Origin: a bacterium
GTDB lineage: Bacteria > Krumholzibacteriota > Krumholzibacteriia > LZORAL124-64-63
Assembly (NCBI GenBank): GCA_003353795.1
Contig: PIVY01000004.1
Span: 1-64,000 of the forward strand
Direction: 5' to 3'
DNA length: 64,000 nt
The notes beneath the pieces were generated by a model. That model did not search any database, was not told the DNA's origin, and saw only the letters and a program-made list of their open reading frames with translations. The position numbers were made by a program, and so were the translations under genes. Position 1 is the stretch's first letter. Every line of letters starts with the position of its first letter. Below are positions 15,971 through 61,134 of this stretch, piece by piece.

Positions 15971-17190
15971 TCGTACCGCAAGCAATCGATGGGGTTCAGC
16001 GCCGCAGCCCGGCGCGCCGGAACGAAACCGAAGGTGATGCCGACCGCGGCCGACACCCCGAAGGCCAGCAGGATGGACCAGACCGAGACCACCGTGGTCC
16101 AGCCGGCCGCCGCGGCGATGATCCAGGCCAGCACCACGCCCACGATCACGCCGGCCAGTCCGCCGCCGAAACTCACCGCGGCGGCCTCCACCAGGAACTG
16201 GGTGAGGATGTCGCGGCGAGTGGCGCCGCAGGCCAGGCGCACACCGATCTCGCGAGTGCGCTCCAGCACGCTGGCCAGCATGATGTTCATGATGCCGATG
16301 CCGCCCACCAGCAACGAGATGCCGGCGATGGCGCCCATCACGAGGGAGAAGATGCGCTGGGTGGCCTGGCGGCGACGGATCAGCTCCAGAGGCACGACCA
16401 CGCGGGTGTCCTGCTCGTCGTGGTGGCGGCGCTGCAGGACGCGGGTCACCAGGCCGGCCACGGCGTCCAGTTGCTCGAGGTCGGCGACCTGGACGATCAG
16501 TCGGTCGAGTTCGCGCTGCCAGACCAGGCGATCGCCGCGCAGGAGCGCGCAGTTGAGGGGAATGTAGATGTCGCGCTCGGTGGCGCGGAGCAGCCCCTCC
16601 TGGTCGTCCTCCACGTCGCCGCTGCCGCTCAGGACGCCGATGACCTCGTACCACTGATTCTCGATCTTGAGGAACGATCCCACCGGCTCGTCCACGCCGA
16701 TGAGTTCGCGCACGAGCCCCGCTCCCAGCACGCACACCCGGGCCAGGTTCTCGTCCTCCTCCTCGGAGAAGAACCGGCCCGCCAGCAGGCGATCGTGGCG
16801 GACCACGGGCAGCGCGGCGGTGGTGCCGACGACGGCGGTCTTGACCCGCTCGCGCCCGAAGACGTCGCGCTCGGACACCACCAGCGGCACCACCGCGGCG
16901 ATGGCCGGGGTGAGCGCGGCGAGGGCGGCCGCGTCGCCGCGGTCGAGGCCCAGCGAACGATGGCCGGTGTCGTCGCCGTCATGGGTCTCGGGCGGATCCT
17001 GGTGCAGGACGATGACGCTGTCGGCGCCCAGGGATTCGAACTGGGCCAGAGCCTCGCGCCGCGCGCCCTCGCTGATCGACAGCATGGCGATGACCGCCGC
17101 CACACCGAACACCACGCCCAGCGCGGTGAGCACCGTGCGCAACCGGTGATCGCGAAGGCCGGCGAGTCCTTGCTGCAGCGCGAGCTTCAT
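15967..17190 (-). CDS. MacB-type ABC transporter permease (FtsX-like)
   Basis: MKLALQQGLAGLRDHRLRTVLTALGVVFGVAAVIAMLSISEGARREALAQFESLGADSVIV...IGIMNIMLASVLERTREIGVRLACGATRRDI...AALNPIDCLRYE. Confidence 0.92.
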   Translation of the reverse strand: MKLALQQGLAGLRDHRLRTVLTALGVVFGVAAVIAMLSISEGARREALAQFESLGADSVIVLHQDPPETHDGDDTGHRSLGLDRGDAAALAALTPAIAAVVPLVVSERDVFGRERVKTAVVGTTAALPVVRHDRLLAGRFFSEEEDENLARVCVLGAGLVRELIGVDEPVGSFLKIENQWYEVIGVLSGSGDVEDDQEGLLRATERDIYIPLNCALLRGDRLVWQRELDRLIVQVADLEQLDAVAGLVTRVLQRRHHDEQDTRVVVPLELIRRRQATQRIFSLVMGAIAGISLLVGGIGIMNIMLASVLERTREIGVRLACGATRRDILTQFLVEAAAVSFGGGLAGVIVGVVLAWIIAAAAGWTTVVSVWSILLAFGVSAAVGITFGFVPARRAAALNPIDCLRYE

Positions 17191-57324: not shown

Positions 57325-59631
57325 TCACCGGACGAGCGTCAGGCTGACGCTCGCCGATCCCTGCCCCGTCACCAGCCGCGCCAGGTAGACACCCGACCCC
57401 ACCGACCGCCCCTGGTCGTCTCGCCCTTCCCAGCGGCGCTCGTGCCGCCCCGGATCCAGGACGCCGTCGACCAGCGTCGCCACGCGCCTTCCGCGCACGT
57501 CGAACACGGCGAGATTCACCGGACCGGCCCCGGGCACCGAAAACGCCACCGTGGTCGCCGGGTTGAATGGATTGGGATACGCGTGATGGACCGTCGCCAC
57601 CGCCGGCGGCAGAACCGGCGCGCCGATGGTGCTGTCGTTGGGCGCGCCCGGCGTGGGCGTGGTGAAGAGGATCCATGATTCGGGATCGTCGGGATCGCGG
57701 CCCTCGCTCACATCGGCGATCTGGGGACCGAACACGTGGGCGTCGAGGAACACGTTGCCCGAGGCCAGCGGTGCGTAGAGGCCGATCTCCTCGCCGGCCG
57801 CACTCAGCTTGAAGGTGGTGTGCAGCGGACCCTCGGCAGGATCGCCGTCACACCACACCACCACGTGCTCGTCCGGGCGCAGCATCACGGCTGGGAACTC
57901 CCACTTGGTGGGGTCGGATAGATCGTCGGTGAGGAAGAGACCGGTGAGATCGCGCGGCTCGGCGCCGACGTTGGCGATCTCCACCCAGTCGGCGAAATCG
58001 CCGGCCTCGTCCGCGTTGACGGTCTGGTTGCTGGCGAGGAACTCGTTGATCACCAGACCGTCGTGGGCGCCGGGCCAGGAAGGCGCGGGCCATTCGCTGA
58101 AGAATGTGTCGGCCTGGGCCAGGAAGATCGGGCGGCGGTCAGTGAGCCATTGCGCGGTGCGGTCGAGGTTGTAGGCGTACCAGTCGGTCTGGAAACCCTC
58201 CCAGCGATCGGCCTGACCGGGGACCTCGGGCCACTGGCCGGCGGCGAGTTGGTCGAGGCGGGCGGTGAGGCTCGCAGTGGTCATGACGCCGCCCAGGAGG
58301 TGCTCGAGGCGGGAGCGGAAGAGGCGGCGGAAGTCGGCGTTGCCCAGCAGGGTGCGGAACATGGTGAGCCATTCCTGCTGGGTGGGATCCCACGATCGGT
58401 GGTCGCCGGGTGCGCGGTACAGGTTCCATTCGCTGGCGTTCCGGGCGGTGAAGAAGCGGAACATGTTGGTGGCCTCGTCGCCGCCGTCGAACGCCAGCTC
58501 CTCGTCCCACATGATGAAGCGCCAGGGGTGATCGCCGGGCTGGAACATGGCCAGGTTCCAGGCGAAGCCGTTGTCGCCCGACACGGCGAACAGGTTGAGG
58601 ATCTGCCAGTCGATGTAGCTGGCCAGGTCCATGGTGGCGCGGACCTGGTCGAACCAGGCGTCGCTACTCGGGTCGGGCACGGATTCGAACGAGCCGAGGA
58701 ACGTCCACCAGGCCGCGGCATCGCCCGCCACGGTCTCACCGTCCTTGAGGAGGTTGTAGCCGGCAGCCTCCAGATCCCAGGTGGTCTCGATGAATTCCGT
58801 GTCGAGGCGCTCGCGCAGGCTGTAGGCGCCCCAGTATTCCCGATTCAGGTAGAGAGCCGCGAACTGGTAGCGGCTGGCCAGGTGGCCGAGGTCGGCGAAG
58901 AGGGTCTCGAGTAGGTTGGTGTTGATCGCGGCCGAGTCGTAGCGGTTGCCGCGCACGATGAGTCGGCGGAACGACTCGGGGCCGTCGGGGAAGAACGGAT
59001 GCTCCACGGTATCGACGGCGCCGTGGTCGTCGAAGTAGAAGCGCAGACCTTTCTGATGGTACCAGCGACCGTAACCGCCGTTGATCCGCAGGCCGATCTC
59101 CTCGTCCAGCACCTTGCCAAGGCCCGGCTCGTAGTACTCGAAGCGGGCGAGACGTTCCCAGGCAGCGCCGGTCTGCAGACAGTTGTCGTGGTCGCCCAGC
59201 ACGTAGATGCCGGTCGCGGGGTGCCAGAGATCGGTGGAGTCGACCACCACGTGGATCACCGGAAGCGCGTGGCCGAGGGGATCGAAGGGGCGCGGCGATC
59301 CGGGGGCGACGGTGACCTCGGTGAGGCCGCCGAGGTCGTCTCGCAGGGTGACGGTGCGCGGGCCGTTCCAGTTCCAGGGGAAGCGCGTGACGAAGGAGCG
59401 GTCGTCGAGGCGCTCGAAGTCGGGATCGGGAACCGCGAGGTCCACCGGGCGATCGGCGGCCACCACCACGGGCATGGCGGCCTCGAGGGCCGGATCGATG
59501 GGATAGATCGGATCGGGGATCAGGCGCCATCCGGGCAGCAACTCCACCGTGACCTGGGCCAGTGCCGGCCCGGCGATGGCAAGCAGGGCAGTCAGCGCGA
59601 GGACGGACTGCAGGATGAGGCGAGCGGTCAT
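57325..59631 (-). CDS. CotH-kinase-like secreted protein with lamin-tail domain and FlgD-like C-terminus
   Basis: EIGLRINGGYGRWYHQKGLRFYF...REYWGAYSLRERLDTEFIE...MWDEELAFDG; LVINEFLASNQTVNADEAGDFADWVEIANVG (LTD); AYPNPFNPATTVAFSVPGAGPVNLAVFDVRGRRVATL...GSGVYLARL. Confidence 0.87.
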   Translation of the reverse strand: MTARLILQSVLALTALLAIAGPALAQVTVELLPGWRLIPDPIYPIDPALEAAMPVVVAADRPVDLAVPDPDFERLDDRSFVTRFPWNWNGPRTVTLRDDLGGLTEVTVAPGSPRPFDPLGHALPVIHVVVDSTDLWHPATGIYVLGDHDNCLQTGAAWERLARFEYYEPGLGKVLDEEIGLRINGGYGRWYHQKGLRFYFDDHGAVDTVEHPFFPDGPESFRRLIVRGNRYDSAAINTNLLETLFADLGHLASRYQFAALYLNREYWGAYSLRERLDTEFIETTWDLEAAGYNLLKDGETVAGDAAAWWTFLGSFESVPDPSSDAWFDQVRATMDLASYIDWQILNLFAVSGDNGFAWNLAMFQPGDHPWRFIMWDEELAFDGGDEATNMFRFFTARNASEWNLYRAPGDHRSWDPTQQEWLTMFRTLLGNADFRRLFRSRLEHLLGGVMTTASLTARLDQLAAGQWPEVPGQADRWEGFQTDWYAYNLDRTAQWLTDRRPIFLAQADTFFSEWPAPSWPGAHDGLVINEFLASNQTVNADEAGDFADWVEIANVGAEPRDLTGLFLTDDLSDPTKWEFPAVMLRPDEHVVVWCDGDPAEGPLHTTFKLSAAGEEIGLYAPLASGNVFLDAHVFGPQIADVSEGRDPDDPESWILFTTPTPGAPNDSTIGAPVLPPAVATVHHAYPNPFNPATTVAFSVPGAGPVNLAVFDVRGRRVATLVDGVLDPGRHERRWEGRDDQGRSVGSGVYLARLVTGQGSASVSLTLVR

Positions 59632-59712
59632 GGCGGCCTGTCTGATAGATCTGGGCTAGACGCGTTTTCCACCCCCATGATCGCAGGTTTCGGGGTTGCC
59701 GCACAACCCCAG

Positions 59713-59852
59713 TGACGTGCCTCAGAAAATGTTGATGGTCGCAGAACCCGGCCTTCCATCAGGGCTTTATTGATGTTTGGCGCTCTCGAAGACAGGATTC
59801 GTGAGCTACTCTCAGGCCAGGATCGACCATCAACATTCTCTAAGGCACGTCC
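59713..59852. mobile_element. MITE-like 140-bp element with ~28-nt terminal inverted repeats and 9-bp target duplication CAACCCCAG
   Basis: Left arm 59714-59741 GACGTGCCTCAGAAAATGTTGATGGTCG; right arm 59824-59851 CGACCATCAACATTCTCTAAGGCACGTC (26/28 complementary); CAACCCCAG at both 59704-59712 and 59853-59861. Confidence 0.8.
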
Positions 59853-59901
59853 CAACCCCAGCGTGCAAAGCGGTACCGGCAACCGGCCTGCACCTGTTAC
59901 C

Positions 59902-61134
59902 ATGACCGGCATGAAGGCTGTCTATTTATCCCTGACGTTTGCCCTCGTGGCTGCCGGTTGCGTGACCGTGCAGGCGGTGGCGTTGCCGGAGATCGGCCTG
60001 GTCACCGCGGACGCCGGTCTCTGGGATCCGGACACCGGAATCTACGCCAACCCCCGCGAGCGAGGCGGCGAATGGGAGCGCGAGGCATTCTTCGAGTACC
60101 GGGCCTCCGGCGTCGAGGTCCGCACCCGCGCCGGTCTGAGGATCCACGGTGGCCGCAGTCGCGACCTCGATCAGAAGAGCCTGCGCCTCTACTTCGACCA
60201 CGGCGACGGTCCGGTGACCCTCGACCTCTTCGGCGATGCGCCGGCCCGCCTGGCCCGCCTCATCCTGCGCAGCGACCAGACTCCCGATCGCATCCTCCAC
60301 ACCAACCTGGCCGAGTCGCTGTTCGGTGACCTGGGTCATCTGGGCAGCCGCCAGGCGCCGGTCACCGTCACCCTCAACGGCGACGACTGGGGCCTCTACA
60401 GCGCGCGCGAACGTCTGGACCCCGAGTGGGTCAACACCACCCTCGGCCACACCGGCGAGTTCACGCTCATCCGCGACGGCAAGACCCGCCACGGCGACGG
60501 TCAGGCATGGTGGGATTTCCTGGCTTCTTTCGCCGCTCCGGCCGACCGCACCTCGCCGGCCTGGCTCGCCGGGGTGCGACGGAACCTCGACCTCGCCTCC
60601 TACATCGACTGGCTCCTGATCCTCGCGTTCGGCGCCGCCGCCGACAACGGCGACGCCCACAACCTCGTGCTGCTCCGGCTCGACGACCGCCCCTGGCGCG
60701 TGATCCTCTGGGACGCCGACGATCTCTTCCGACCGGACAACCTCCACAACGACCACTTCCGCTGGTTCGCGGCCGTCGATGCCGACGAGTACCGTCGCTT
60801 CCGGCCGCCCCTGCTGATCACCGGCGACTGGAAGAGCCGGGCACCCTGGTCCGCCCTCTTCCGCGGACTGCTGGAGAATCCCGAATTCCGGGAACGGTTC
60901 TTCGTCCGGGCGGAGGAATTGCTGGCCGGAGAACTGTCGGTGGCGCGTCTGAACGACCGCATCGGCGAGGTGGTGGATGCCCACGAACCAGGCGTGGCGC
61001 GTCATGCCGCGCGCTGGGGCTGGTCGAGCCCCGGCGATCTTCAGGTGCAGGCAGCGAAACTGTCGGCCTGGATCGAGGAACGGCACGCCATCGTGCGCGA
61101 AGACCTGGCGGCCTTCCGGACCCGTCACCCCTGA
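59902..61134 (+). CDS. CotH-kinase-like (lipo)protein, paralog of 57325-59631
   Basis: MTGMKAVYLSLTFALVAAGCVTV; GLRIHGGRSRDLDQKSLRLYFDHGDG...LIRDGKTRHGDGQAWWDFLASF...LWDADDLFRP, parallels the CotH domain of its neighbour. Confidence 0.83.
   Translation: MTGMKAVYLSLTFALVAAGCVTVQAVALPEIGLVTADAGLWDPDTGIYANPRERGGEWEREAFFEYRASGVEVRTRAGLRIHGGRSRDLDQKSLRLYFDHGDGPVTLDLFGDAPARLARLILRSDQTPDRILHTNLAESLFGDLGHLGSRQAPVTVTLNGDDWGLYSARERLDPEWVNTTLGHTGEFTLIRDGKTRHGDGQAWWDFLASFAAPADRTSPAWLAGVRRNLDLASYIDWLLILAFGAAADNGDAHNLVLLRLDDRPWRVILWDADDLFRPDNLHNDHFRWFAAVDADEYRRFRPPLLITGDWKSRAPWSALFRGLLENPEFRERFFVRAEELLAGELSVARLNDRIGEVVDAHEPGVARHAARWGWSSPGDLQVQAAKLSAWIEERHAIVREDLAAFRTRHP

Follow-up and report, generated by a model that had tools for sequence, protein, structure and literature searches.

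A 140-bp MITE between divergent CotH genes and a ladder of lengths among related elements of Candidatus Krumholzibacteriia

In Acinetobacter, the 113-bp element MITEAba12 is non-coding, has terminal inverted repeats in common with the co-resident ISAba12, and inserts into AT-rich targets with a 9-bp duplication that is detectable in 36 of 90 copies (PMC6382973). The MITE that we describe here, found in a window of 64,000 nucleotides (the whole stretch of bacterial DNA that was analysed), is alike in being short and non-coding, in sharing its ends with a co-resident insertion sequence (IS), in its AT-rich targets and 9-bp duplication, and in having many copies that lack one. MITEAba12 differs in its parent, ISAba12, in the phylum of its host, and in that the part of its published description drawn on here notes no helical length ladder (PMC6382973).

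Elements with quantised lengths are already documented in Paramecium internal eliminated sequences (IESs) and, reportedly, in engineered IS1 and IS50 constructs. Paramecium IESs have transposon-derived ends and a length periodicity of about 10.2 bp, which was attributed to looping in which the two ends share one helical face (PMC3464196). Like the MITEs of Krumholzibacteriia, they are natural elements with transposon-derived ends and periodic lengths; they differ in belonging to a eukaryote, in being excised by a domesticated piggyBac transposase, in having lengths from 26 bp upward, and in that selection acts on excision rather than insertion. For short bacterial elements, activity reportedly varies with the helical repeat of the end-to-end distance, as is said of IS1 (Lane, 1994) and of IS50 (Goryshin, 1994), both cited in PMC3464196. 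Those laboratory helical-twist experiments reportedly used engineered constructs, whereas here a natural population appears to follow the same rule. A limited literature search found no report of natural bacterial MITEs with a helical length ladder.

The 140-bp element and its copies

The first-pass annotation of the window had described a 140-bp element with 28-nt inverted termini, complementary at 26 of 28 positions, around an 82-nt spacer without transposase, and direct reading of the sequence confirmed both the coordinates and the counts (Table 1). Inspection of open reading frames found none of substance inside the element. The start that the ORF track places at 59770 was correctly judged an artifact: the TTG there just extends the frame of the CotH gene upstream, and the gene has two in-frame ATGs of its own. 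The paired-end pattern had no match in 100 dinucleotide-preserving shuffles of the window, and the reversed-pattern control had none in any genome searched. Only one other inverted pair of at least 20 nt within 300 bp occurs in the window (16802-16911); it is GC-rich, apparently coding sequence, and unrelated to the 140-bp element.

Table 1. Features of the insertion locus, in window coordinates
Feature	Position	Strand	Remarks
CotH gene	57325..59631	-	CotH kinase and lamin tail domain; an FlgD-like Ig match is weak and under the cut-off
7-bp dyad GGGGTTG-CCGCA-CAACCCC of original target	59692..59710	.	direct reading
Left copy of 9-bp target-site duplication CAACCCCAG	59704..59712	+	register equals family-wide duplication
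MITE	59713..59852	.	140 bp; GTGCC...GGCAC distance 132 nt
Left terminal inverted repeat GACGTGCCTCAGAAAATGTTGATGGTCG	59714..59741	+	resembles both IS ends at contig breaks
Non-coding interior, 82 nt	59742..59823	.	between the inverted arms
Right terminal inverted repeat	59824..59851	-	26/28 complementary to left arm
Right copy of 9-bp target-site duplication CAACCCCAG	59853..59861	+	perfect match to left copy
CotH gene, divergent	59902..61134	+	in-frame ATGs 59902, 59911

The source genome is a draft assembly of 5.7 Mb in 953 contigs. A search of it for further copies, which the first-pass annotation had proposed, found three (on contigs C27, C358 and C156), each 74-76% identical, and a covariance-model search of the same genome added no full copies of this kind. 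Among the four copies the arms are 79-98% identical and the 82-nt interiors 59-74% identical, with zero insertions or deletions. Contigs C137, C438 and C358 hold three more elements of the class, which are of two other kinds and have GTGTC-type ends, bringing the total to seven. The window element was not found in the relatives searched by sequence. Because it is multi-copy, the scenario of a single-copy regulatory dyad conserved in relatives, named at the outset as the outcome that would speak against an insertion, is excluded.

Taken as a whole, the 140-bp stretch is very probably a MITE of an IS1-like IS of Ca. Krumholzibacteriia; the further copies, together with ends in common with an autonomous IS, uphold the original description of a MITE-like non-autonomous insertion, and the window insertion itself is an ordinary MITE. 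Such an element would offer only two transposase-binding ends. Transposase encoded by co-resident full-length ISs would bind both ends, synapse them, and then insert the MITE at AT-edged sites (consensus CAWNNNWTG) with a 9-bp duplication. We infer this mobilisation in trans by the IS transposase from the sequences.

Lengths of the related elements

Two facing ends 38 to 218 nt apart were sought in 38 genomes of the family, and an additional single scan of public genomes covered end distances of 87 to 147 nt. The MITE insertions found, 108 distinct ones in 27 genomes, include one of 96 nt that is apparently coding sequence matched by chance. By interior the insertions form 54 clusters, between which no similarity was detectable, and no interior motif common to lineages was found; a central IHF-like ATCAA box, promising by eye, was rejected as not enriched. 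One 131-nt MITE lineage reaches about 30 copies in bacterium isolate Bsp_15 (G059; L160, L164, L169 and others), a burst much larger than the copy number in the window's genome.

Distances from GTGCC to GGCAC cluster at about 120, 131, 141, 151, 161, 172, 183, 193 and 204 nt, a ladder with a period of 10.3-10.7 nt, and the window element (132 nt) sits on the main rung. A 10.3-nt ladder has a rung no more than 1.5 nt away from 45 of the 50 interior lineages, versus 29% expected. Counting one length per genome and rung gave a Rayleigh R of 0.745 at 10.45 nt, compared with 0.272 ± 0.059 for the null, none of 5000 nulls being as high; one length per genus and rung gave R = 0.713. Support was weaker when rungs were weighted equally (R 0.558, fraction 0.03), and the ladder persisted without the 120 and 131 rungs (22 lineages, fraction 0.0006). 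The lengths of full ISs showed no significant periodicity. Off-ladder lengths were 62, 62, 65, 114, 136, 156 and 217 nt. The very short elements among these, L250, L252 and L253 (62, 65 and 62 nt), consist of little beyond two ends, and may be immobile relics or use a different geometry.

The best explanation for the ladder is that the two ends have to be in helical phase when they synapse. DNA of 120-200 bp is near the persistence length and would be too stiff for its ends to meet off-phase, and two transposase-bound ends would synapse only if they lay on the same helix face; from this analysis, the ladder would exist through the stiffness of the elements combined with the same-face requirement. 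We think it probable that the MITEs of this previously unnamed IS1-like family of Krumholzibacteriia run from about 120 to 204 nt in helical-turn steps by way of same-side synapsis.

The main rival reading, in which the ladder was handed down from a small number of old elements rather than imposed by a physical constraint on synapsis, appears unlikely. It draws on the dominance of the 131-nt rung, which is common to related genomes, and on the fast decay of interior similarity, by which distant kinship can escape detection. Common ancestry is, however, hard to square with at least nine rungs, at a spacing of about 10.4 nt, that are found across different genera and with unrelated interiors, or with a signal that survives both the removal of the 120 and 131 rungs and the reduction to one length per genus and rung. 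Old copies, moreover, keep their exact length although their interiors are only 59-74% identical, and therefore length itself has been held. Helical phasing would account for this drift in sequence without any drift in length.

The parent insertion sequence

Termini of the form GACGTGCCT..GA..TGTTGA lie at six contig ends of the source genome (C312, C558, C726, C84, C291 and C324), which encode either the start (…CPNPTCR) or the end (…AVNRRHELKLAA, then stop) of a transposase. A collapsed multi-copy IS causes contigs of a draft assembly to break inside it. These IS ends and transposase termini are what came of the search, also proposed at first pass, for an autonomous IS with shared ends; the cognate IS is nowhere assembled intact in the source genome, where only its ends are visible. 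One left and right contig pair, C312 and C291, carries GAACGCAAC and GAACGTAAC, a duplication with agreement at 8 of 9 positions. A complete related IS is present on contig C175 of the source genome. In the window's own genome, a complete related IS of the same group (L047:1884-2990), with ends GTTGTGCC... and a 368-aa transposase, lies immediately after a strong terminator; several other copies also adjoin terminators.

Among relatives in Ca. Krumholzibacteriia, complete ISs are 1207-1227 bp long with a single open reading frame of about 370 aa and GGTTGTGCC-type ends (16-22/22 identity), and full copies have the ends GGTTGTGCCGCCGAAATTGTGTC. Such complete relatives are common: the C-terminal part of the transposase was matched in 36 of the 56 genomes searched. 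The plasmid and viral collections contained no relatives of the transposase. Contig records with related MITEs mostly name Ca. Krumholzibacteriia or simply a bacterium; Gemmatimonad or Latescibacterota appears in the titles of a few. The possibility that the MITE interior is a deletion remnant of a known IS copy was rejected, as similarity stops at the inverted repeat.

IS1 makes a 9-bp target duplication, and IS1 relatives with a single reading frame are known. The ends of the parent IS start with GGTNNTGC and its duplication is 9 bp, both as in IS1; in a comparison with E. coli IS1A (NC_000913.3:19796-20563), the ends GGTGATGCTGCC and GGTTGTGCCGCC were counted as alike. In an hhalign comparison the N-terminal zinc-ribbon/HTH of the transposase aligned with InsA of E. 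coli IS1 (94.6%, E 7e-8, 64 aa), whereas the same method detected no similarity between the remainder of the protein and the catalytic part, InsB. The parent IS also differs from E. coli IS1 in its size (1.2 kb versus 768 bp) and in the absence of the insA/insB frameshift organisation, having one frame of about 370 aa in place of two overlapping ones. The NCBIfam IS1 model matches 13 of 15 members below its cut-off (best E 1.9e-8), and for the member with its matches set out in full, the match is confined to residues 46-159 and lies far below the cut-off. No Pfam catalytic domain was recognised in the 15 members, and a PDB profile search with the transposase returned nothing relevant. On these sequence comparisons, IS1-like is the best label for the parent IS, short of full membership of the IS1 family, because of its GGTNNTGC ends, its 9-bp duplication and its InsA-like DNA-binding domain.

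This label replaces the IS256, ISL3 and IS4 families that had been guessed for the element. That an ISL3-, IS256- or IS4-type element mobilised the MITE is decidedly improbable: the N-terminal zinc-ribbon/HTH does match the NCBIfam ISL3 model (E 2e-6; weak matches in 13 of 15 members, best E 1.1e-6), and four members weakly match an IS256 zinc-binding model, but these matches are limited to the DNA-binding part and lie far below cut-off. A full ISL3 transposase is not matched, the similarity covering residues 14-121 only and scoring 26.9 bits where the cut-off is 180. There was also no Pfam or NCBIfam catalytic match to an IS256 or IS4 transposase among the members, nor to any transposase catalytic domain in Pfam, and the ends and the 9-bp duplication resemble those of IS1. 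Because its transposases have no catalytic domain that Pfam recognises, this IS group probably escapes or misleads annotation in the phylum, being missed or mis-annotated.

Insertion sites and the CotH neighbours

The element is very unlikely to be a structured RNA or a regulatory dyad that is dispersed and kept for gene expression rather than mobility. It is intergenic, it would form a strong hairpin if transcribed (the fold of the 140 nt is far stronger than that of shuffles, z = -6.75), and its four copies show zero indels. Yet the interiors are entirely different between lineages, and the site has IS-type ends and a 9-bp duplication; with no match near threshold in an Rfam search and double changes at just 2 of the 43 pairs predicted for the four aligned copies, a structured RNA was rejected.

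The window insertion is simple, with both duplications intact. Joining the flanks without the element leaves a divergent intergenic region of about 131 bp, and the uninterrupted site would read ...GCCGCACAACCCCAGCGTGC...; the right arm of the dyad of the original target (Table 1) lies in the duplicated 9-mer. The closest orthologue in a relative of the flanking CotH gene is at 45%, too distant for an empty-site comparison by orthology, and no relative yielded an empty site. A promoter scan found no sigma-70-like promoter in the CotH intergenic region as it stands, and a terminator scan found one weak terminator-like site, near chance. The source genome has at least six CotH-kinase genes, two of which form the divergent pair, while in most close relatives the CotH query used here detected none.

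For the duplication, left and right flanks were compared at each register against a permuted control. In 31 full ISs pooled, flank matching was strongest at a single register (z = 6.4), which, base by base, comprises nine matching bases and one extra base beside each end, as in the window. The 100 MITE insertions gave an identical peak register (z = 5.8); four of them, the window copy included, had perfect 9/9 repeats and four had 8/9, where about 0.1 each were expected. The target consensus is palindromic, CAWNNNWTG, and CAACCCCAG partly fits it. The 9-bp target-site duplication claimed for the window therefore stands, as a perfect repeat of CAACCCCAG in a register recovered family-wide in ISs and MITEs. 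Although most sister insertions are without matching flanks, it is extremely unlikely that the repeat arose by chance or local duplication and that the insertion left none, given a register identical to that of the 31 full ISs and the other MITE insertions and four perfect repeats among 100 insertions against the expected 0.1 or so.

At 74 of the 100 insertions, the left and right 9-mers match at four or fewer of nine positions, and the three sister copies on C27, C358 and C156 have no matching target duplication. In these non-matching flanks the left and right 9-mers each still carry the CAW…WTG motif. Intramolecular replicative transposition is known for IS1; it would place one end beside a new target and delete or invert the intervening DNA, giving unmatched flanks. 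Across 54 ends of the genome with 30 copies, mate 9-mers were in no clear excess; scrambling of duplications by exchange between copies was rejected on this ground, and deletions are therefore likelier than inversions or exchange. Errors of the draft assemblies are another possible cause of unmatched flanks. At the C27 copy (L002), the two flanking 9-mers form an almost perfect inverted repeat (GTTGGATTG / CAATCCATG), as the palindromic target consensus would produce.

If helical phasing does set the lengths of these MITEs, nature has carried out a helical-twist experiment on a transpososome, and a family of bacterial genomes preserves its record. The ladder would then predict the geometry of synapsis from sequence alone, offer a filter for the recognition of MITEs, and give a testable rule for the continued mobility of short elements.
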